A stretch of 25,532 nt of DNA from a virus. Under the pieces are notes generated by a model. The model had not been told where the DNA came from. It did not search any database and saw only the letters and a list, made by a program, of their open reading frames with translations. Of this stretch, positions 4,538 to 24,861 are shown piece after piece. The position numbers and the translations under genes were made by a program. The number at the start of each line of letters is the position of its first letter. Within the stretch, counting starts at the first letter, position 1. The stretch covers positions 1 to 25,532 of the IMG/VR virus record IMGVR_UViG_3300034406_000076; one strand, 5' to 3'.

Positions 4538-5806
4538 TTGCCCCTTTCCTTTGCTAATCTGTTCAACAGGATTACTGAAGCTTTCAGACACCGTACAGCT
4601 TTGTTTTTAACTGAAACCGAGAAAATCATGGGGCTCTCACCTGACATCAGCTTCAAAACCATGACTCGGGTTTACCTTGGCGATTTGGCGGCCAGAGCCA
4701 GCGTAGACTTCCAAGGCGATCAGATTGCAGGTCAAGGCTTCTACACAACCATGAACGAGGAGTACACTGAGAAAAGCGAAAACAAAACCGCTAAAGAGAT
4801 TGTGGATGAGTTCTGCGAGAAGTTTCACGTAGACGAACTTTTGCTTGGAACCAGCAGATACTTGGTTGGCTGGGGAAACGCCTTCTGGTGGGTCGGTAAC
4901 AAGAGGATTTTTGACAAGCTTGTGCTTGTTCCACTTGATGCAATTAAAGAACATAAAGGCATTAAGTTCGGTGAAGACGGCTCGCTTGATAAGATTGAGT
5001 TTGACTGGAACCGCAAGCCCAAAAAGATTGATGGGGACGAGCTGTTTCACTTAGCCTGCAATGTTATGACCGCCAAACCTCTCGGTATAGGAATCCTGCA
5101 TTCATTATGCATGCCCTTAGACATTGGCGACGGAGAGCAGCGTGAGCCTTTCTATCAGATCAAAGGCAAGGTAATCGACGGGATGGCACAAACTATCTAC
5201 AGGTTTGGAGCCCCTAACGAGCTATGGAGCTTCCCCGGACTACCAGAGAAAAAACTGCAACAAGCAGAGTCAAAGATAAAAACCATCCCACGAAGAGGCG
5301 CCAGATTCGTCTTCAATCCACCCAAAGGATCTGACGCCAAAGTGCAGCCGATTGTTGCTGAGAGAATGAGAGGGATGGATAAGTATGTTGAAACCCTTGA
5401 AGACGAGTTCGATCTTGGCTTACAGACGCCGCTTGCCAAATTAGTCACGAAAACAGGGTTCACCGAAGCCAGTGCAAACGCTGCCTTGGATATCGGGGAA
5501 CTACACATCATAGCCTTGAGAAGGCTTCTCAAGCGAAGCACAGAGTACCTTTTCGATTCTGTTGTTACGGCGGCTGGCTTAGATCCAAAGCAGGCGCAAG
5601 TTCGCCTCAATTGGGGAATCCCAGAAGAGCTCGACTATGAAAAACTCACCGACCTGTTGGGACATCTTGTCACGATCATGACAACTATGCCAGGCGTTAT
5701 CAGAGGACACGAAATGCGGAAGATCTTGCGTGATGTTGCCAAATTACCGCTTGAGGAAGAAGAGCCAGAGCAACCAACGGAGGTTAAAGCCATTGCCAGA
5801 CAATAA
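4538..5806 (+). CDS. Portal protein
   Basis: The portal forms the dodecameric DNA channel at one capsid vertex, binds the terminase during packaging and anchors the neck. The frame is open from TTG 4457, but I prefer TTG 4538 (MPLSFANLFNRITEAF; 422 residues), with AGGAG upstream. ATG 4628 is a shorter option. Supporting sequence includes the portal-type N-terminal segment (TRVYLGDLAARASVDFQG), a GTSRYLVGWGNAFWW core and a VPLDAIKEH turn. It also includes IDGDELFHLACN...KPLGIGILHSL, the usual 'gdellHi...plG.spl' motif, and a helical stem and crown rich in Lys and Glu. Length fits small portals. The protease gene overlaps its end by 14 bp. Portal followed by protease and MCP is the standard head order. 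Confidence 0.88.
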   Translation: MPLSFANLFNRITEAFRHRTALFLTETEKIMGLSPDISFKTMTRVYLGDLAARASVDFQGDQIAGQGFYTTMNEEYTEKSENKTAKEIVDEFCEKFHVDELLLGTSRYLVGWGNAFWWVGNKRIFDKLVLVPLDAIKEHKGIKFGEDGSLDKIEFDWNRKPKKIDGDELFHLACNVMTAKPLGIGILHSLCMPLDIGDGEQREPFYQIKGKVIDGMAQTIYRFGAPNELWSFPGLPEKKLQQAESKIKTIPRRGARFVFNPPKGSDAKVQPIVAERMRGMDKYVETLEDEFDLGLQTPLAKLVTKTGFTEASANAALDIGELHIIALRRLLKRSTEYLFDSVVTAAGLDPKQAQVRLNWGIPEELDYEKLTDLLGHLVTIMTTMPGVIRGHEMRKILRDVAKLPLEEEEPEQPTEVKAIARQ

Positions 5807-7262
5807 ACAGCACACAGCCGAGTTTGAGAAGTGCGTTCAACAAGTCATGGAACAAGGCCATGAGAAGGGAAGCGCCTTCGCAATCTGCACAGACTCTTTC
5901 AAGAAAGCTGGTAAGCCCGTTTTTGTCGGTGAAAGCGAGAAGCAGAAGCTCCATTTATTCTGTGAATCTTTCAAGCTTGAAGGCAACAAGGTCTCCGGAG
6001 TCGCTATTCATCCCAAACGGATTTTTCACCCAGAAGAAGACATGACTCATGTTTATTTGCGTGAAGAGCTGGAGAAGGCTGCGCCTACAGGTGCGGGTAA
6101 ACCCTTTGGAATCGACCACATTTACGTCTTGCCTCCGCCAAATCTATTGACAAAATCATGGTACTGTCCAGAAGAAGACGGCATCTGTTTTGAAGGATTA
6201 GTCGATGATTACATTGCTGAGCAAATTCGCAAGAAAGTCTTCAAAGGCATAAGCATTGAGTTGAATTGGCTCAGGCCAGGCGGCAGCGTCGAATATGTTA
6301 ACGGTGTGGCAGCCCGTAATTTTGAGTTGACATCGGTACATTTTCTCAAAAAGTATCCTCCAGGAGATCCGGATGCTTATGTTAAGCTGTGGGAGCAAAT
6401 CAAAGAGCAGCTTGTTGTGGCTCCACCTTTAACTCTGGACCAGCGAGTTGAAGCCTTAGAGCAGCAAATCCAAGAAGTTCTGAACAAAATCAGCGTGATT
6501 AACGCGAAGCTGGAAGTTCTAACTGGTCAACCTTCTCCGTCGGCGACAGCACAGCCCGCACAGTCGGGCGCTTCGCAAACGATAGGAGTAATGAAAATGA
6601 GTGAATCAAATCAGGAACCAGAAAAAGATGAGCACGGCTGCATTGTTGGTAAAGAAAGATGGAACCCTGAAACCGAGAAATGTGTTCCCATTATTGCAGA
6701 GCAGCAGAGTAACCAAGAACCTGAAAAAGATGAACACGGTTGCATCATAGGCAAGGAACGCTGGGACCCTGATCAGAACAAATGTGTTCCAATCATTTCC
6801 GAACAGCAAGAGCCTGAGAAAGATGAACATGGATGCGTAGTCGGCAAGGAAAGATGGGACGCGGAAAGCGAAGAATGCGTGCCAATTGAAACTGTGAAAG
6901 AACAGCAAGGCGAAGAAACTGACGAGCACAAGCAGTTTATGGCTCAATGTCTCGCAAGCGGAAAAACCATGGAGCAATGCGCAGCCGAATGGAAACAGAA
7001 ACAAGAAGGTGGAGAAACACAAGGGGCTCAAACTGAGTCACTTGTTGCTCTTCGTAAGAAACTTGTGGAAGTCGAGGCTGCGCTTACCACGATGGAGAAG
7101 CAACAGAAAAGAAAAGCTGCCTCTTGGAAAGAAAAATACGAGAGACTACGTGAAGCAGTGAAGGGATCTATTCCGCCACCGCGTATTTGGAAATCTTGGA
7201 CGCCTGGTCCTCAGCGTTACGTGCAAGAGAATCTGAAGATTTTGCGTGAAATGGAATCATAG
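5793..7262 (+). CDS. Capsid maturation protease with C-terminal scaffold
   Basis: TTG 5793 is chosen because GGAGGT (5779-5784) lies 8 nt upstream; this gives 489 residues. After a short Cys-containing helical N-terminus (residues 8-40), residues 50-200 look like an HK97-type (S78-like) prohead protease, with candidate catalytic His109 in FGIDH and Ser154 in KGISIEL. A coiled coil follows (about 214-245), then a Pro/Ala/Ser linker. Three tandem Cys-containing repeats come next (about 275-372), then a Cys helix resembling the N-terminal one (FMAQCLASGKTMEQC) and a second coiled coil. In the family, the protease cleaves scaffold and capsid N-termini during head maturation. The repeats are unusual for a scaffold. 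A well-placed internal start at 6597 could yield scaffold alone. Confidence 0.8.
   Translation: MPDNKQHTAEFEKCVQQVMEQGHEKGSAFAICTDSFKKAGKPVFVGESEKQKLHLFCESFKLEGNKVSGVAIHPKRIFHPEEDMTHVYLREELEKAAPTGAGKPFGIDHIYVLPPPNLLTKSWYCPEEDGICFEGLVDDYIAEQIRKKVFKGISIELNWLRPGGSVEYVNGVAARNFELTSVHFLKKYPPGDPDAYVKLWEQIKEQLVVAPPLTLDQRVEALEQQIQEVLNKISVINAKLEVLTGQPSPSATAQPAQSGASQTIGVMKMSESNQEPEKDEHGCIVGKERWNPETEKCVPIIAEQQSNQEPEKDEHGCIIGKERWDPDQNKCVPIISEQQEPEKDEHGCVVGKERWDAESEECVPIETVKEQQGEETDEHKQFMAQCLASGKTMEQCAAEWKQKQEGGETQGAQTESLVALRKKLVEVEAALTTMEKQQKRKAASWKEKYERLREAVKGSIPPPRIWKSWTPGPQRYVQENLKILREMES
6597..7262 (+). CDS. Possible internal-start scaffold protein
   Basis: An in-frame ATG at 6597 inside the protease gene has AGGAG (6584-6588) 8 nt upstream, at the junction between the protease-linker part and the repeats. 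Translation from here would give a 221-residue protein carrying only the triple repeat and the C-terminal coiled coil. Nested scaffold genes inside protease genes are well known in tailed phages (lambda C/Nu3). The site and spacing are read directly; actual use is inferred. Confidence 0.5.
   Translation: MSESNQEPEKDEHGCIVGKERWNPETEKCVPIIAEQQSNQEPEKDEHGCIIGKERWDPDQNKCVPIISEQQEPEKDEHGCVVGKERWDAESEECVPIETVKEQQGEETDEHKQFMAQCLASGKTMEQCAAEWKQKQEGGETQGAQTESLVALRKKLVEVEAALTTMEKQQKRKAASWKEKYERLREAVKGSIPPPRIWKSWTPGPQRYVQENLKILREMES
6615..6908 (+). repeat. Three tandem in-frame repeats (31-34 codons each)
   Basis: Copies start at 6615, 6717 and 6810. Each encodes EPEKDEHGC, a two-residue Ile/Val step, GKERW, an acidic variable spacer, then a Cys followed by VPI. 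The two Cys and the Trp are invariant. The nucleotide copies differ at many third positions, so the duplication is not very recent and the protein sequence appears to be maintained. Confidence 0.85.
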
Positions 7263-9740: not shown

Positions 9741-10691
9741 TTGGAAACCTATGACAAAGAAAGCATAAACCTCGCGCTTTCAATGCGCACTCTTCTGGGC
9801 AATCAAAAAGAACTCAGTAGAAGCGACGTTATAATATTCCATTGTCCACTGGACCTCAAACTTCTCGACATAATCGATAAGCCTTCCATCTACTATAACC
9901 ACCGTTCAGGAAGGCCTACAACTTTCATGTTCAGTGAAATAATGAAACATGTTGAACCAATCAGAAGGGAAGTTTTGAGGAAAGACAGAGATTGGGTGAA
10001 CAAAAAGCTGGAAGGGCTACTCAGAAAACCAGATGTGATTCTCAGCAACTCGAAGTTCACAAAGAAAATGCTCAAGAAATACTTCGGAGTCAACTCTTTC
10101 GTTGTCTATCCACCAGTTGACTTACAACATTTCAATCCAACAACCACACATCCAAAACGAGAGTATTTCCTCTCAGTGCAAAGGGTCAACTGGCAGAAAA
10201 GAATACTTGTCCAGATCGAAGCCTTCAAAGGATTGAATGAAAAGCTCAAAATCGCTGGTGGAATAGGAGATCAACGCCCAAACGCAGATCTGTTAAGGCT
10301 TGCTGAACATTGCGACAACATTGAAATTTTGGGTGACATTGAAGAAGGTGAGCTTCCAGAGTTGTATACGCATGCTAAGGCTACTATTCAAACGGGATAC
10401 TACGAGGATTTTGGCTTAGTCCCCATTGAAAGCATGGCTTGTGGAACACCGATAATAGTTGTGAATGAAGGCGGGTTCATAGACACTGTGCACAGCCCCA
10501 AGCTTGGAATCAGAATACGAAAACCATACGTCGAGAACCTGAGAAAAGCAGCCGAAAACTTTGATTGCAACAATTATGATCCGCGGATTTTGAGGAAAGA
10601 AGCCGAGAAATACGGTTTTGAACGCTTCCAGAACCAGATGGAGAAGTATGTGAAACTGGCGGTGGAAAGACATGGCTTACGAAGACGCTGA
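9741..10691 (+). CDS. GT4-family glycosyltransferase, main part
   Basis: TTG 9741 with GGTGAG (9726-9731) 9 nt upstream gives 316 residues. The C-terminal GT-B donor-binding domain is clear: FLSVQRVNWQKR (about 144-154, with the phosphate-binding Lys), LKIAGGIGD, IEILGDIEEGELPELYTHA. The GT4 signature E222-DFGLVPIE230 with SMACGTPIIVVNEGGF completes it. These enzymes transfer a sugar from a nucleotide or lipid-phosphate donor with retention. The N-terminal domain lacks its first beta-alpha unit, which is encoded by 9545-9730. The product may glycosylate virion or host surface proteins; the sugar cannot be told from sequence. The next gene overlaps by 20 bp. Confidence 0.82.
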   Translation: METYDKESINLALSMRTLLGNQKELSRSDVIIFHCPLDLKLLDIIDKPSIYYNHRSGRPTTFMFSEIMKHVEPIRREVLRKDRDWVNKKLEGLLRKPDVILSNSKFTKKMLKKYFGVNSFVVYPPVDLQHFNPTTTHPKREYFLSVQRVNWQKRILVQIEAFKGLNEKLKIAGGIGDQRPNADLLRLAEHCDNIEILGDIEEGELPELYTHAKATIQTGYYEDFGLVPIESMACGTPIIVVNEGGFIDTVHSPKLGIRIRKPYVENLRKAAENFDCNNYDPRILRKEAEKYGFERFQNQMEKYVKLAVERHGLRRR

Positions 10692-13015: not shown

Positions 13016-13657
13016 TTGTCAAATGAGTTTAAAGTGGAGCTTGACAAACTCGCCCATGAAATAAGATTCGTAAAACCACCTGCGGAGTGTCAGAGTTTAC
13101 CACTTCCTGGATATGTTGGGAAGAGATATTCGAAAAGAGGAATACTCTTTGTCGGAAAGAACCCAGGGCAACCAGGGAAACGTCACCCCGACGGATATTG
13201 GGCTGGTGAGCATCATTATGATAGAAGTATGCGTGTGGATTGTCTAAGAGAACATTATTTTGAAGGATTGAGGCGATGTCCGGTCGGCATCTTTTTGGAA
13301 GAATTACTGCGACGCAACTCTTTGACTATGCTTGATGATATTGCATATACAAATGTAGTGAAATGCGTCACGAAAAATAACATGGATCCCAGTGCGCCCT
13401 TAGTTGAGTTTTGGTTACCCTATTTGAAAAAAGAGTTATACTTGCTCAAACCCAAACTGATTGTGTGTTTGGGCCAATTTGCAGTACGCATATTTAACAG
13501 CCAAGCCTCAAAGTTTAAGACATTTCGTTGCGAGTTGGTTGAAGGCGTTGTGTTATATCTTCCACATCCGAGTATGCGCGGCATAAAACGAACAGAACTG
13601 ATTAAGCGGTCCTCAGAAAGTTTCAGAAATGGGCTAAAAGAAAGTGGTGCCATTTAG
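13016..13657 (+). CDS. Uracil-DNA glycosylase superfamily protein
   Basis: TTG 13016, with GGAAGGT upstream, gives 213 residues. UDG-superfamily motifs are in the right order: motif A as ILFVGKNPGQPG (about 43-54, like the GEAPG loop of family 4 to 6 enzymes); the core strand IAYTNVVKCVTKN (about 109-121); LKPKLIVCLGQFAVRIF (about 144-160); and motif B as LYLPHPSMRG (about 180-189, His-Pro-Ser). The family flips out and excises uracil or related deaminated or modified bases. Asn instead of Glu/Asp in motif A may alter specificity. The Cys pattern does not clearly match the family 4 Fe-S cluster. The divergent partner is another glycosylase. Confidence 0.75.
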   Translation: MSNEFKVELDKLAHEIRFVKPPAECQSLPLPGYVGKRYSKRGILFVGKNPGQPGKRHPDGYWAGEHHYDRSMRVDCLREHYFEGLRRCPVGIFLEELLRRNSLTMLDDIAYTNVVKCVTKNNMDPSAPLVEFWLPYLKKELYLLKPKLIVCLGQFAVRIFNSQASKFKTFRCELVEGVVLYLPHPSMRGIKRTELIKRSSESFRNGLKESGAI

Positions 13658-17109: not shown

Positions 17110-17123
17110 AGAGGTGAATGAAA

Positions 17124-17969
17124 GTGACGTATGGAGCCCATGAAGCCAAAGTCTGCTATGTACAAGAAATAACCTACGGCGAGACACCAAGCCCTAACCC
17201 GAGCATGCTTGGATTGAAAACAGCCTTCGATGTAGAGCACAATATCGATCCTGGACTGTTGAAACTCCGCGGGATTGGATCCCGCGACCTCGACACCGTC
17301 AAAAAGGGCTTACGCAAGCCAACATTGAAATTCGGCTACCTCATTCCAAGCTCTGCACCAATTAACTTTCTACTGTATGCTCAAAACTTGAACAGTATGA
17401 GCGTTGAAGTAATCTATGAGCGAGCCTCCATCATTGACTTGCTCTTCAAAGGCATGAAGATCGACAAGGTGACGGTGCAGCTCACTGACATTGAAACCGA
17501 GAACGCCGTCGTAACTGTGCCCAGCGTAGATCTGATGGGACAAGACGTAGTAGTGGCCACGGCTAAGAACAGCACAAACTACGCTGACTATACTGGGGCA
17601 GTAGCATATAACGATAGCTACGTCAAGAAAGATACGACAACACTGGACAGAGTAACCGATTGGACCTGGAGCATCGAGAACCATTTAAAACGTGTGCCTG
17701 TAATTCGGAGCACCAGCGGTGAGCTTCTCAAGTATCTGCAAGAGCGCCACAGAGACCTCTACGGGCAGTTGACGTTTGAGTTTGAAAGCAAGGAAGAACA
17801 TGACGAGGTTTTAGCGGACACGGAGTTTAGCTTAGAGTTTGGGCTTGGAGGAACTAACAAGGCTGTCTTCAGCAACTGCAAATGGCAAAACGTCAAAAAT
17901 GTGGTGAGAATCGAGGATCTGGTAGCGGTTAAGGCTGCTTTTGTGGCTCGACAAGTGGCTATCAGCTGA
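17124..17969 (+). CDS. Major tail tube protein
   Basis: GAGGTGA (17111-17117) is 6 nt before GTG 17124, which I take as the start (281 residues); ATG 17118 is too close to the ribosome binding site. The protein is beta-rich with a central helix and a Thr/Val/Asp-rich insertion. The end (YGQLTFEFESKEEHDEVLADTEFSLEFGLGG...AVFSNCKWQNVKNVVRIEDLVAVKAAFVARQV) is the usual tail-tube close, where strands form the hexameric ring. The long-range pattern and its place between the terminator and chaperone genes identify it. No sheath gene follows, so the tail is probably non-contractile. Confidence 0.78.
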   Translation: MTYGAHEAKVCYVQEITYGETPSPNPSMLGLKTAFDVEHNIDPGLLKLRGIGSRDLDTVKKGLRKPTLKFGYLIPSSAPINFLLYAQNLNSMSVEVIYERASIIDLLFKGMKIDKVTVQLTDIETENAVVTVPSVDLMGQDVVVATAKNSTNYADYTGAVAYNDSYVKKDTTTLDRVTDWTWSIENHLKRVPVIRSTSGELLKYLQERHRDLYGQLTFEFESKEEHDEVLADTEFSLEFGLGGTNKAVFSNCKWQNVKNVVRIEDLVAVKAAFVARQVAIS

Positions 17970-17980
17970 GGTGCTCTGAA

Positions 17981-18187
17981 GTGACTGTTGAAGTAAAAAT
18001 CTTGGAAAACTTCGATCGTCAAGCTGCTCTACAGAAAAGATGGATGAAAATGTGGAAAACCTTGGGGAAGCGAATTCTAAAGATGCCTAAGTGGATGCAA
18101 GACATCGTGCTCGAAGACATCAACACCGCAATCAAGAATCGAATAGCAATCATGGAGATGATTCAAAATGCGAAAAGAAGCAATTGA
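17981..18187 (+). CDS. Small basic helical protein before tail chaperones
   Basis: GTG 17981 has GAGGTG (17968-17973) 7 nt upstream. The 68-residue protein is helical and Lys/Trp/Met-rich (KRWMKMWKTLGKRILKMPKWMQDIVLEDI). It overlaps the chaperone gene by 20 bp. I recognise no family. Its location between tube and chaperone genes suggests a tail-assembly role. Confidence 0.6.
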   Translation: MTVEVKILENFDRQAALQKRWMKMWKTLGKRILKMPKWMQDIVLEDINTAIKNRIAIMEMIQNAKRSN

Positions 18188-18626
18188 ATTAGACAATCGC
18201 TTTGGAGAACAGTATGCTGGTCGCTATGTCTTTAGTGAGATAACTTGGGCAAGACGTAGCAGAATAATCCAGAAGCACACGAAATATCATCCGATAACGG
18301 GTCAGGTAAGAAGTAGCGACTACATAGCCATTCAAGCAGAGAGCATCATGGCTTCCCTCAAGGAACAGCCAAAAAACAAGCCTATCAGCCTCGAAAAACT
18401 GCTCAGCGAAGACGACGGCATACCCATAGGCTTAGGCGAACTTTTCTCTCAAATCGTTAACAAGCTTTGCGGCATCACGGTTGAGGAGACTCGTTTTTTA
18501 TTGGAGCCATCAGAAGAGGAAAGCCTCACCCGGCAATCACGAACTTCAGGCTCTGCAAAGAATTCGGGTGGACACCAAACCAACTCGAAAAGCAATCCGC
18601 GAAAACAATCAGCGCATTCATCGTGA
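18168..18626 (+). CDS. Tail assembly chaperone, zero-frame product (gpG-like)
   Basis: ATG 18168, with GGAGATGA upstream, gives a 152-residue zero-frame product. The first 111 residues are a convincing small helical protein (SSDYIAIQAESIMASLKE, PISLEKLLSEDDGIPIGLGELFSQIVNKLCGITVEETRF). After that the zero frame becomes Ser/Arg/Asn-rich and low in structure, while the -1 frame is clearly protein-like. Position between tube and tape measure genes, plus a frameshift site, is the hallmark of the gpG/gpGT chaperone pair, which coats the tape measure during tail assembly. The zero-frame tail may be just the termination product. Confidence 0.7.
   Translation: MRKEAIELDNRFGEQYAGRYVFSEITWARRSRIIQKHTKYHPITGQVRSSDYIAIQAESIMASLKEQPKNKPISLEKLLSEDDGIPIGLGELFSQIVNKLCGITVEETRFLLEPSEEESLTRQSRTSGSAKNSGGHQTNSKSNPRKQSAHSS
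18494..18500 (+). other. -1 ribosomal frameshift slippery heptamer
   Basis: The heptamer T-TTT-TTA is in register with the chaperone frame (CGT TTT TTA), a canonical X-XXY-YYZ site. Downstream, GAGG-AAAG-CCTC (18516-18527) can form a hairpin. GAGCC, a few bases after the site, can pair with GGCTC about 45 nt later, giving a possible stimulatory stem. Confidence 0.75.
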
Positions 18627-18703
18627 TTTTGAACGAGTTAGATAGGCAGACGGAGGAAGAGCGCAAAAAGGCGGAGAAAGAGGCGAAATGGCGTGGGCGT
18701 TGA
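18500..18703 (+). CDS. -1 frame extension of the tail chaperone (gpGT-like T domain)
   Basis: After slipping on the heptamer, the ribosome would read 67 further residues in the -1 frame. They start IGAIRRGKPHPAITNF and continue LCKEFGWTPNQLEKQSAKT, ISAFIVILNELDRQTEEE and a charged Lys/Glu/Arg tail. This looks like an authentic helical domain, unlike the zero-frame tail. The fusion product would be 178 residues and ends inside the start of the next gene. In lambda and many siphoviruses, the T domain binds the tape measure and tube. The frame has no independent start at the switch point, which supports recoding. Confidence 0.7.
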   Translation: MGAIRRGKPHPAITNFRLCKEFGWTPNQLEKQSAKTISAFIVILNELDRQTEEERKKAEKEAKWRGR

Positions 18704-19061
18704 AGTCAGCATCGACATAGAAGGTGTCGAACAGTTCAAGGGAGCCATGGCAAAGCTTGACTCTGGAATGCAAAGACATATTCATAGACAGCTCGCCAGA
18801 TGGGCTGCGGACGTTAAAGCCTCAGCCAGAAGAATTGTTCCAGTTCGCACGGGCTATCTGCGTAGCACAATCTATGCTAAGATTAAGGGGTGGGTTGCAC
18901 AGATAGGTGCTGAAGCCACCTACGCCATGTTTGTGGAGTTTGGCACACGCTACATGCGAGCTCGCCCATACCTTTACCCAGCTATTCAAGCGCATCTGCC
19001 ACGCCTTGAAGCCATAATTTCTGAAGCGATTGAATATGCAAAAAGGGAGGCTAAATTATAG
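18693..19061 (+). CDS. HK97 gp10-like tail/neck protein
   Basis: GTG 18693 gives 122 residues. The pattern is that of the HK97 gp10 family: EVSIDIEGVEQFKGAMAKLDSGMQRHIHRQLARWAADVKASARRIVPVRTGYLRSTI, then AQIGAEATYAMFVEFGTRYMRARPYLYPAI. The 'P..TG.Lr.SI' and 'YA.fvEfGT..m.arPfl.pA' blocks are diagnostic. In most phages this gene lies between the closure and terminator genes; here it follows the chaperones. It overlaps the -1 frame chaperone end by 11 bp and the tape measure start by one base. Confidence 0.82.
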   Translation: MGVEVSIDIEGVEQFKGAMAKLDSGMQRHIHRQLARWAADVKASARRIVPVRTGYLRSTIYAKIKGWVAQIGAEATYAMFVEFGTRYMRARPYLYPAIQAHLPRLEAIISEAIEYAKREAKL

Positions 19062-19606
19062 TGGCATTCAGAGAAATCGTTGTCACAGTAAGCGCTGTGA
19101 ACCGAGCAAGCGCCCAGTTTAGCCGCATAAAAGCCGACGCTGAAGCCTTGTCAGCGCGAATAAAGAGTCTCGGTGCTGCTTTTGCGGGTTTGGGAGCCAC
19201 AGGTGTAGCTATTGGAAGCGTTGCTCATCAAATGGGGTTGCTGAATGATGAACAGGCTAAGGTTTTCAGTTCTGCCATGGCGGTCGTCTCAGTCATGGGC
19301 ATGTTCATGCGAACAAGTTGGGGTGTAGCTGTTGCCCAGAAGATCTATGCGGCTGCAACGTGGATAGCCACTGCGGCTCAGAACGCTTTGAACATCAGTT
19401 ATGCCACGTTTCTTGCACTTACAGGGGTTGGAATAGCGGTTATTATTGCAGCTGCAGCTGCCATGTGGCACTTCTCAAGTCAAATGAACGCCGCAACTGC
19501 TTCAGTGCGAGATTACAACGCTGCTGCTTCTGAAATGTCTACACATACTCGTAGCATTCGCCGTGCTGGAGAAGAAGAGCTGTACCGTAAAGGTGTAGAA
19601 TATTGA
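19061..19606 (+). CDS. Very short tape measure-like protein
   Basis: GTG 19061 overlaps the previous stop; only 181 residues. The N-terminus is helical (VSAVNRASAQFSRIKADAEALSARIKSLGAAFAGLGATGVAIGSV). Two hydrophobic segments follow (about 71-95 and 122-142, ISYATFLALTGVGIAVIIAAAAA), then a polar helix ending RRAGEEELYRKGVEY. This matches the edges of tape measure proteins, with Ala/Gly-rich membrane-active segments, and sits exactly between the chaperone and hub genes. Tape measures usually have 500 to over 1000 residues. If about 1.5 A per residue holds, the tail would be under 30 nm. The hub gene overlaps by 4 bp, so no extra piece is hidden. Confidence 0.65.
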   Translation: MAFREIVVTVSAVNRASAQFSRIKADAEALSARIKSLGAAFAGLGATGVAIGSVAHQMGLLNDEQAKVFSSAMAVVSVMGMFMRTSWGVAVAQKIYAAATWIATAAQNALNISYATFLALTGVGIAVIIAAAAAMWHFSSQMNAATASVRDYNAAASEMSTHTRSIRRAGEEELYRKGVEY

Positions 19607-22026: not shown

Positions 22027-23410
22027 GTGGTTCAGACTTCAGCAAAGCGAAAGGCTTGTTGATGAAGCTGAGGTGGCCGGGGCTGAAAGGCTGAGTAGAG
22101 AGCCCGTGGAGTTTTTCCGTCAAGTCGTGGGATTCGAACCCACGAGTTATCAGAAGGAGTTCATACGGTTATTCTGTGGACATTCTTTTGTCGCTGGGCG
22201 TTGGTGCCGTCAAAGCGGGAAAAGCTGGATCGTAGCAGCTCTGTTATTGTGGTATGCTGTGACGCATCCTGACAGCGGCATAGCTGTAGTTGGTCCCAGT
22301 TGGAGACAAGCAAAATTCATCATTCGCCGCATCAAGTATTTCCTCCGCAACTTACCGCGTGCAATGTATTTCAAGCCTCTGAAAACCATCATCCGTTTTA
22401 CAAACGGCTCAGTCATTGAAGCTTTTCCCAACAACCCAGACACGATTCGAGGACCTACACTTCATGTTGTTTATGGTGACGAATGGAATTTCATGCCTAA
22501 CGATGAGGAGATGTATGATGCCATTCTTTTCACAATTAGCACGACCAACGGAAAATTTGTGTGCACAAGTACGCCTTGGAATACAGATTCGCTCTTCTAC
22601 AAGTTCGTGCATCATGAAGATTACAATGTGTTTGCCAGGCATCATGTAACCTGGAAGCAGGCCCTTGAGCCTAAAGGACCGTTAAAGAAGAATATTCTGT
22701 CGATGATTCGCAGACAGTTTGCTGAGGATCCTTGGCGTTGGAAGCGTGAGATGGAGGCTGAATGGGCTGAAGACGAGACTACATGGCTGCCTCAGAGCTT
22801 AATCACGAAATGTATTCAGGGAGACCTTGAGCTTTGGAAGTTTGACAGCCATCAGAGCGGCACGTTTTACGGCGGACTTGACCTCGGCAAAATCCGTGAC
22901 TACAGCGTCTTTATTGGTGTGGAGAAGGTTGAAAGCAGATATCTGCTACGCCACTGGAAGGTTTTTCCGCTTAACACAAAGTACGCCACGGTTATAGGTT
23001 ACGTTAAAACCCTCTGCGACCGCTGGGAAAGTTTTGACCGCATCAGAGTTGACATCACAGGTGTAGGTGAATACGTAGTTGAGGACATGCAAAACGCTGG
23101 CATAGAAGCAGAGATAGAAGGGGTTACCTTTACGCTTCCGCGAAAGCAGGAGATGGCCAGCCTTTTGAAACAGCGCATGCTGGATACGGCCTACCGCTTC
23201 CCCTTCTCACAGATGAGGCTTTCACCAACCGTTCTGCTTAGCTATGTCGCAGAACTGAATGTGGAGAGGTTTGAGCTACGGAAAGACGGGTCAATAGCGT
23301 TTAACCATCCCCAGGGTCAACACGATGATACTTTTTGGGCTTCTTCTTTAGCGATTTACTGCAGCGTCAAAATGACCCCGGAACCGACATTGGTTGTGAT
23401 TCCCACATGA
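22001..23410 (+). CDS. Terminase large subunit
   Basis: ATG 22001 is taken as the start (469 residues); ATG 22019 is also possible. The ATPase domain has the N-terminal YQKEFIRLF element, a deviant Walker A GRWCRQSGKS (66-75), Walker B HVVYGDEW (155-162) and coupling motif CTSTPW (188-193). The RNase H-like nuclease has D294 in GGLDLG, D351 in RVDITG and the D442-D443 pair in QGQHDDTFW, which together bind two metals. The protein drives DNA into the head and cuts the concatemer. It overlaps the small subunit gene at its start and the ABC-GNAT gene at its end (ATGA). All key residues are present, so it should be active. Confidence 0.93.
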   Translation: MRPSEIMPKWFRLQQSERLVDEAEVAGAERLSREPVEFFRQVVGFEPTSYQKEFIRLFCGHSFVAGRWCRQSGKSWIVAALLLWYAVTHPDSGIAVVGPSWRQAKFIIRRIKYFLRNLPRAMYFKPLKTIIRFTNGSVIEAFPNNPDTIRGPTLHVVYGDEWNFMPNDEEMYDAILFTISTTNGKFVCTSTPWNTDSLFYKFVHHEDYNVFARHHVTWKQALEPKGPLKKNILSMIRRQFAEDPWRWKREMEAEWAEDETTWLPQSLITKCIQGDLELWKFDSHQSGTFYGGLDLGKIRDYSVFIGVEKVESRYLLRHWKVFPLNTKYATVIGYVKTLCDRWESFDRIRVDITGVGEYVVEDMQNAGIEAEIEGVTFTLPRKQEMASLLKQRMLDTAYRFPFSQMRLSPTVLLSYVAELNVERFELRKDGSIAFNHPQGQHDDTFWASSLAIYCSVKMTPEPTLVVIPT

Positions 23411-24861
23411 CAAGGCGCCGAGAGTTCTTCCGCATCACCAAATACGCTCGCAGATATGACCGTAAAACCGAACGCTTTACCATTAATATAGCATATGAAA
23501 CCGCAACCGAGATCACGCCAAGAACAATCGGAGTGGCTGAAGCCTTCGGCTTAGGAATAGATCAACACAAAAAATTCGTTATCTACAATGATGTCAAGCT
23601 TAACATAGGACCCACAGACATCGTTTATATCACTGGCGACAGCGGCTCAGGCAAAAGCGTTCTGCTACGAGCCATGAAAAACGACCTTGGTTCAGAAGCT
23701 CTCGACATGACGACCATCCAAGTAGACCCAGACAAGCCCTTAGTCGACACTGTTGGCAATAACCTGGGCGAAGGCCTTGAGCTGTTGAGCCGAGCTGGCT
23801 TAAATGACGCTTTTCTCTTCATAAGGCGTTATCGGGAACTCAGTGACGGACAGAAATATCGGTACAAAATAGCCAGGCTTATGGAAAGTGGAAAGCAATG
23901 GTGGCTTGCCGACGAGTTTTGCAGCACATTAGACAGGGACACAGCTAAGATTGTGGCTTTTAACATGCAGAAGCTTGCCAGAAAAAGCGGTAAAGCCGTA
24001 ATAGTTGCAACAACTCACACAGACCTAACTGAGGATCTTAAGCCCAGCGTGCATATCCATAAGCGATTTGGCAGAGAAATCGAGGTTAACTATTATCCTA
24101 ACGACATCAACAAGCAATGTAGCCTCGTAAAAGAAATGCGAATTGAAGAAGGTTCAGTAGCAGATTATAGAAAGCTACGTGTCTTCCACTACCGCACTTC
24201 ACACTGTCCAGCTCCAAGGAAAATCTTTGTTTTAAAGCGTGAAGATGAGCTTTGTGGAGTTATCGTCTACAGCTGGTCTCCTCCAAACACTTTTGGCAGA
24301 AGGAAAGTTTGGAAGGGAAGCTTTCAGCAGATGCAGAAAGAGTTGAGCACTATTACACGAGTTGTTGTGCATCCTAAATACCGTACCATAGGCTTGGGTA
24401 TTAAGCTCGTTAAAGAAACCTTGCCTTTGGCTCCAACACCATGCATTGAAACCATTGCGGTTATGGCACGCTACAACCCTTTCTTTGAGAGAGCAGGCAT
24501 GCAAAAAATTATGGAAAGTAAGCCTAACCCAAACATACTCGTAGCCATAGAACAGCTGCGAAAATTAGGCTTCAACCCAGTGTTGCTTGGCTCTGTAAAC
24601 TACAATGCACAAAAAATCAAAGAAGCTGAAAGAGAAAAAGTCGAAGAGATCTTAATTCAATTTTGTAAGAAAGAAGGAGCCTTACGAAAGAGGTTGTTAA
24701 GTTTTCACCGAGTATATCCCAAACAAGCTCAGGCAGTAGCCAAAATCAAAGCTGCCTCAATTGACATTCTTGCAAGAACCATTAGGCGCCTGAACTTTCT
24801 GGCTCAAACAAAAGTCTACTTATTCTGGAGTTCTCTCAAAACCAACACTTTAGCACGATAG
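23407..24861 (+). CDS. ABC-type ATPase fused to GNAT acetyltransferase domain
   Basis: ATG 23407 shares ATGA with the terminase stop; 484 residues. Residues ~50-220 are an ABC ATPase: Walker A GDSGSGKS (77-84), signature LSDGQ (145-149), Walker B WWLADE (165-170) with the catalytic Glu, D-loop after CSTLD, and switch His204 in ATTHTD. No transmembrane segment is present, so it is not a transporter. Residues ~245-375 are a GNAT domain with RVVVHPKYRTIGLG (318-331, acetyl-CoA loop) and a NPFFERAGM close. The C-terminal ~110 residues are helical and basic. Substrates of either domain are unknown. Placement right after terL suggests a late or DNA-linked function. Confidence 0.85.
   Translation: MTRRREFFRITKYARRYDRKTERFTINIAYETATEITPRTIGVAEAFGLGIDQHKKFVIYNDVKLNIGPTDIVYITGDSGSGKSVLLRAMKNDLGSEALDMTTIQVDPDKPLVDTVGNNLGEGLELLSRAGLNDAFLFIRRYRELSDGQKYRYKIARLMESGKQWWLADEFCSTLDRDTAKIVAFNMQKLARKSGKAVIVATTHTDLTEDLKPSVHIHKRFGREIEVNYYPNDINKQCSLVKEMRIEEGSVADYRKLRVFHYRTSHCPAPRKIFVLKREDELCGVIVYSWSPPNTFGRRKVWKGSFQQMQKELSTITRVVVHPKYRTIGLGIKLVKETLPLAPTPCIETIAVMARYNPFFERAGMQKIMESKPNPNILVAIEQLRKLGFNPVLLGSVNYNAQKIKEAEREKVEEILIQFCKKEGALRKRLLSFHRVYPKQAQAVAKIKAASIDILARTIRRLNFLAQTKVYLFWSSLKTNTLAR

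Follow-up and report, generated by a model that had tools for sequence, protein, structure and literature searches.

Does a tail assembly gene of an archaeal virus make two proteins by programmed −1 frameshifting, and what becomes of the reading frame that the slipping ribosomes would leave? The question is raised by a T-TTT-TTA heptamer in the window (the whole stretch of DNA analyzed here, 25,532 nt, IMG/VR record IMGVR_UViG_3300034406_000076). The heptamer joins two overlapping reading frames next to a tail tube gene. The arrangement resembles gpG/gpGT of phage lambda, in which an N-domain and a −1 frame T domain are joined at a heptamer adjoining the tail tube gene (PMC5009743).

Reading frames at the slip site

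The locus comprises the following elements:
18168..18500, + strand: chaperone N-domain in the zero frame, 111 aa including the slip codons (ORF, model, Foldseek, conservation)
18482..18484, + strand: −1 frame stop (TGA) 5′ of the slip site, blocking read-in from upstream (translation)
18494..18500, + strand: slippery heptamer T-TTT-TTA (exact register, position shared by related loci)
18500..18703, + strand: T-like C-domain, 67 aa and stop, completing a predicted 178-aa transframe product (PHROG 9001, tblastn, codon entropy)
18501..18626, + strand: zero-frame extension, 41 codons and stop, the Ser/Gln-rich end of the unshifted 152-aa product

The initial annotation placed the heptamer in register with the chaperone frame, and this was confirmed: the zero-frame codons at the slip are CGT (18492), TTT (18495) and TTA (18498), giving the X-XXY-YYZ register exactly relative to the ATG at 18168. 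The proposed 67-residue −1 frame was likewise recovered. It is open from position 18485 to the TGA at 18701–18703, with 67 residues after the slip (18500–18700). No start codon suited to making the domain lies within it: the first ATG, GTG or TTG is the GTG at 18623, which lies beyond most of the domain and leaves 26 codons. The zero frame continues for 41 codons beyond the slip site and ends with the TGA at 18624–18626. Only three slippery heptamers are present in the window, against approximately 10 expected in shuffled sequences, and the heptamer alone is therefore no evidence of frameshifting. The site is raised above chance because the −1 frame domain matches PHROG 9001 and because the arrangement is conserved in relatives.

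Protein domains and neighboring genes

The N-domain gave no sequence profile match in Pfam or PHROG, so that its kinship to known chaperones is undetectable in this way, and no sequence kinship to the halovirus chaperones was detectable either. An AlphaFold2 model (pLDDT 89.6) was used in Foldseek searches. The top match in BFVD was an archaeal virus protein (E=5.8e-5), and tail assembly chaperones, including that of a Siphoviridae sp., were found with E values from 4.5e-4 to 2.5e-3; the matches included R4TML7 of Haloarcula californiae tailed virus 1 (HCTV-1; E=1.5e-3) and a protein of Bacillus phage Gemini (E=2.5e-3). Among PDB entries, weak matches to YqbN (3klu; prob 0.82) and to the HK97 chaperone (2ob9) ranked first and second, with E values of 0.2 and 0.7. 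As modeled, the N-domain thus has a tail-chaperone fold, and it is conserved in more than 200 fetched loci. At locus L071:3693-4213 the N-domain is strongly diverged, while the T-TTT-TTA site, the C-domain and the Ser-rich zero-frame tail are retained.

The C-domain gave no match in a Pfam search, but its residues 13–66 match PHROG 9001, "tail assembly chaperone" (E=1.8e-13). In tblastn searches with the C-domain, phages Jayan, Finn, Riggi and others were found, with E values down to 8e-7 for Bacillus phages, and comparison with the model of the Finn protein gave prob 1.00 and E=2e-3. The C-domain is homologous to known chaperone C-domains.

The genes flanking the chaperone locus are the following:
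17118..17969, + strand: tail tube protein (PF18906 Phage_tube_2, E=7.1e-8)
18693..19061, + strand: HK97-gp10-like/tail completion protein (PF04883, E=6.8e-6; phrog_5, E=6.8e-20)
19061..19606, + strand: candidate short tape measure protein, 181 aa (position and sequence character; syntenic in relatives, 180–271 aa)

The last part of the −1 frame overlaps the gp10-like gene, which separates the chaperone gene from the candidate tape measure gene, a placement conserved in relatives. The ORF at 19061–19606 gave no PHROG or Pfam match. Tail length is usually estimated at approximately 1.5 angstrom per tape measure residue, and a tape measure of 181 aa, if that is what this ORF encodes, would mean a very short tail.

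Elsewhere in the window, a glycosyltransferase group 1 gene (9741–10691) is situated amid head and tail genes. Positions 23335–24861 encode a protein of 508 aa in which an ABC-type ATPase part is combined with a GNAT acetyltransferase part, and a Uracil-DNA glycosylase superfamily protein is encoded at 13016–13657 (PF03167, E=4.5e-14). A 98-nt repeat occurs three times in tandem at 6609–6901, within the ORF 5730–7262, and codes for EPEKDEHGC..GKERW....CVPI.

Conservation of the heptamer in related loci

The comparative set consisted of 224 fetched loci containing both domains (some being re-fetches of one contig), or 136 after clustering at 90% identity. A canonical heptamer, with the C-domain in the −1 arrangement, was found at the same place in 223 of the 224. 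Named by the six-base run and the seventh base, the heptamers are of types T6A (173 loci), A6C (32), T6G (15), A6T (2) and A6A (1). In the single exception (L143) the frame upstream is disrupted, and AAAAAAC is still present. A further search added agreement in 32 of 32 loci, some of them proviruses already in the first set. A C-domain profile search of 398 genomes of one phylum (that of G001) gave matches in 15, and no arrangement beyond those already described turned up in the loci examined. No GenBank phage record close to the window was found. In two distant C-domain relatives, L078:3911-4138 and L081:3878-4111, other heptamers (C-CCT-TTC and C-CCA-AAA) stand in matching register.

The conservation is visible at the level of single codons. 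In 118 T6 loci, Phe is always encoded by TTT, Leu always by TTA or TTG, and the preceding codon ends in T whatever the amino acid; away from the site, TTR makes up 31% of Leu codons and TTT 37% of Phe codons, compared with 100% at the site. The exchange of T6 and A6 runs at one place indicates that slipperiness itself is what is conserved. The A6-type loci are nested within the T6 tree, which calls for two changes, and one or two origins suffice to explain the A6 sites. For this reason we do not claim that archaeal sites avoid A-AAA-AAG, a heptamer seen only in the bacterial relatives.

The purifying selection in the −1 frame that the initial annotation led one to expect among homologues was also observed. 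In the overlap, mean entropies at −1 codon positions 1, 2 and 3 are 0.58, 0.41 and 1.21, a coding-frame pattern. A lone −1 junction at a homopolymer can resemble an indel, and a fused ORF broken by decay or by a sequencing error would look similar in a single genome. However, the junction recurs in more than 130 distinct loci, which stem from many samples and in part from cellular genomes, with purifying selection on both sides, and no in-frame fused relative was found among the loci; the probability of such an artifact is negligible.

Relatives without the heptamer, or with the second domain as an independent gene, would have spoken against frameshifting, and none were found, a canonical heptamer and the −1 arrangement being kept in 223 of the 224 loci. 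An independent gene might be suggested by the A6-type loci, where a conserved in-frame ATG follows the heptamer in all 24 cases, often as an ATGA overlapping the zero-frame stop, as would suit an internal start or termination-reinitiation. In contrast, 101 of 112 T6 relatives have no start within 20 codons, the window has ATC at this position and only the late GTG at 18623 thereafter, and an independent gene would leave the conservation of the slippery heptamer unexplained. We therefore regard translation of the −1 domain as a separate gene as very unlikely, while internal initiation may supplement frameshifting in the A6-type loci. In these loci (e.g., L066:2174-2200) a near-invariant block (C/A)GGGCGATG follows A-AAA-AAC.

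Every site has a run of six T or six A at this position, which would also be compatible with slippage of the RNA polymerase instead of the ribosome. Polymerase slippage usually needs runs of eight or more, and six-base runs are short for this purpose. Moreover, the X-XXY-YYZ register is kept in every case, and the seventh base is restricted to A or G after T6 and to C, T or A after A6; C never follows T6, although it would also encode Phe. A polymerase would not need these restrictions, and transcriptional slippage as the source of the −1 product is accordingly a poor candidate, if a slightly better one than an independent gene. Ribosomal frameshifting is retained in what follows.

Host of the virus

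Since the window is an IMG/VR record, the host was deduced from relatives. A scan in which each species was represented by one genome yielded 27 loci in cellular genomes; 25 of these are titled Bathyarchaeota or Bathyarchaeum, one Crenarchaeota and one Bipolaricaulis, and the last two titles may be binning or naming matters. The cellular copies include those on the 1.72 Mb chromosome CP070759.1 and on the 2.15 Mb contig JANKMT010000001.1. The virus is thus predicted to have an archaeal host belonging to the uncultured Bathyarchaeia. Five copies of the chaperone pair (L086, L088, L092, L093 and L102, on JAAKEZ01 contigs) are present in one Bathyarchaeota assembly, which points to several related proviruses in that single genome.

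Protein family, fold, synteny, the assigned host and the comparison of related loci all speak for the initial annotation's central proposal, −1 recoding in the tail chaperone of a virus of archaea. The locus is very probably a tail assembly chaperone gene of the lambda G/GT type, expressed with a −1 frameshift, in a Caudoviricetes virus of Bathyarchaeia. The register, the homology, the conservation, the selection on both frames described below and the host group can be read from the sequences themselves.

RNA structure and Shine-Dalgarno-like sequences

A hairpin and a longer potential stem downstream of the site had been pointed out. Folding was examined in 45 T6 and 24 A6 loci, relative to dinucleotide shuffles and to control windows of the same gene. 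Downstream of the T6 sites the mean z was −0.13 (60 nt) and −0.48 (100 nt), no stronger than in the control windows, and no Rfam match was obtained at the site; the hairpin and stem hence do not stand out as meaningful elements. The A6 loci fold slightly better over 100 nt downstream of the slip. The sequence GAGGAG (18484–18489) was considered as a Shine-Dalgarno-like stimulator and rejected, as its codons are not conserved: the ratios of GAG to GAA at Glu codons −5 and −4 are 48:48 and 55:61.

Selection on the zero-frame extension

The zero frame beyond the heptamer had been dismissed as non-protein-like. On the contrary, it appears to be selected. In nearly all T6 loci it stays open past the slip for 41, 43 or 46 codons, with 5 stop-making codons observed in the T6 relatives compared to 143.4 ± 9.3 expected if −1 frame codons were chosen by N-domain codon usage. 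Among Ile codons in the overlap, 89% are ATC and 0% are ATA, while in the N-domain ATA accounts for 37%. The share of T among T/C third bases is 9–21% by overlap block versus 36–48% in the N-domain, and it rises beyond the zero-frame stop.

The selection also extends to the composition of the encoded peptide. With stops already excluded from the expectation, hydrophobic residues make up 8.7% of the T6 extension (24.7% expected), approximately one third of expectation, and Ser 28% (15% expected); in the extension of the window itself, hydrophobic residues account for 4.9%, compared to 25.8% expected. The choice of T or C at the sites in question never creates a stop, so an open frame cannot be the whole reason for the bias, and the product seems to be kept hydrophilic.

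The same pattern was found in 14 sequences less than 65% identical to each other in the C-domain, with T/(T+C) of 0.21 in the overlap, 0.40 in the N-domain and 0.52 after the stop, and with ATA at 0 of 57 Ile codons in the overlap versus 42 of 132.

A nucleotide-level constraint, such as RNA structure or base composition, might produce such a bias as a by-product, with no tail being translated. The third bases in the overlap are indeed C/A-rich, and the tail peptide is a prediction from sequence. Against this, the RNA structure analysis gave no signal, and in raw counts the bias follows the zero-frame stop: at codons 41–46, loci whose zero frame ends at codon 41 have a T/(T+C) of 0.46, and those in which it ends at codon 46 have one of 0.09. 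A tree-corrected version of this boundary test has only four well-supported independent pairs, the raw counts being strong. Furthermore, the bias is absent from the A6 loci with an early stop, in which hydrophobic residues amount to 25.2% compared to 26.4% expected. The constraint explanation is consequently unlikely, though of the alternatives weighed here it is the least so. Because the bias reaches no further than the zero-frame stop and is not seen in the early-stopping relatives, the overlap appears to be dual-coding, with both the −1 frame and the zero frame under selection.

Proposed mechanism

In the simplest reading, most ribosomes would stay in the zero frame and produce the 152-aa protein, composed of the N-domain and the 41-residue Ser/Gln-rich hydrophilic tail. 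A minority would slip by −1 on T-TTT-TTA through tandem re-pairing of tRNA-Phe and tRNA-Leu (Lys and Asn tRNAs in the A6 type) and produce the 178-aa protein, composed of the N-domain and the helical T-like domain. We infer both the ribosomal nature of the slippage and its rate. By analogy with lambda (PMC5009743), coating of the tape measure protein would fall to the short form, and recruitment of the tube protein to the long one. As a guess, the Ser/Gln tail might serve as a disordered brush, holding the majority form in solution and preventing it from recruiting the tube. Selection would then retain the T-like domain in the −1 frame and keep the zero frame open and hydrophilic.

We lean toward the view that the frameshift switches between two functional C-termini specified by one stretch of DNA, the majority chaperone ending in a disordered Ser/Gln-rich tail and the minority form in a folded domain that recruits the tube, and that the tail has been gained or lost among lineages of Bathyarchaeia viruses in step with changes of the heptamer.

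Comparison with known systems

The locus shares with lambda the N-domain joined to a −1 frame T domain at a heptamer, beside the tail tube gene. It differs in its heptamer (T-TTT-TTA versus G-GGA-AAG), in its archaeal host and in having a gp10-like gene that separates the chaperone gene from the candidate tape measure gene. In lambda the zero frame ends shortly after the slip, whereas here it runs on for 41–46 selected codons.

The Bacillus and Geobacillus phages Finn, Andromeda, Jayan and GBK1 (PHROG 9046 and PHROG 9001) carry a homologous C-domain, with 40–49% identity over approximately 40–55 aa, preceded, as in the window, by a PF18906 tube gene and a chaperone-like ORF. In these phages A-AAA-AAG stands in register with the C-domain in the −1 frame, but the zero-frame stop follows two codons later, the hosts are bacterial and the pair is annotated as two separate genes.

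The locus had been presented, by implication, as a first archaeal example. Tail chaperone −1 frameshifting was, however, predicted earlier for the haloviruses HVTV-1, HCTV-1, HCTV-2 and HCTV-5 (PMC5009743, PMC8211752). The chaperone of HCTV-1 is a fold match to the N-domain described here, and the HCTV-2 heptamer is A-AAA-AAC (PMC5009743), as in the A6C relatives. The haloviruses mostly use other heptamers (G-GGA-AAC, G-GGA-AAG), and they infect halophilic hosts of another phylum. The Bathyarchaeia tailed provirus BATPV1 is on contig JAAKEZ010000002 (PMC11705971), which carries the chaperone family member L102; its description mentions chaperone genes and not frameshifting (PMC11705971), and frameshifting is not mentioned in another paper on Bathyarchaeia viruses (PMC10848311). 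A limited literature search found no report of tail-chaperone frameshifting in Bathyarchaeia viruses, nor any of selection on the zero-frame end of such a chaperone. Both the occurrence in this lineage and the selected tail appear to be new.

The only archaeal −1 frameshifting reported as demonstrated is that of a Saccharolobus fucosidase (PMC8211752). Where one cellular case had been shown and viral cases predicted from a few haloviruses, the loci assembled here provide a large comparative set for archaeal programmed −1 frameshifting. With T-TTT-TTA, T-TTT-TTG and A-AAA-AAC replacing one another at a single site, the codons on which archaeal ribosomes slip become directly testable. The selected zero-frame tail is a part absent from the lambda model, and both frames of this gene are apparently used.
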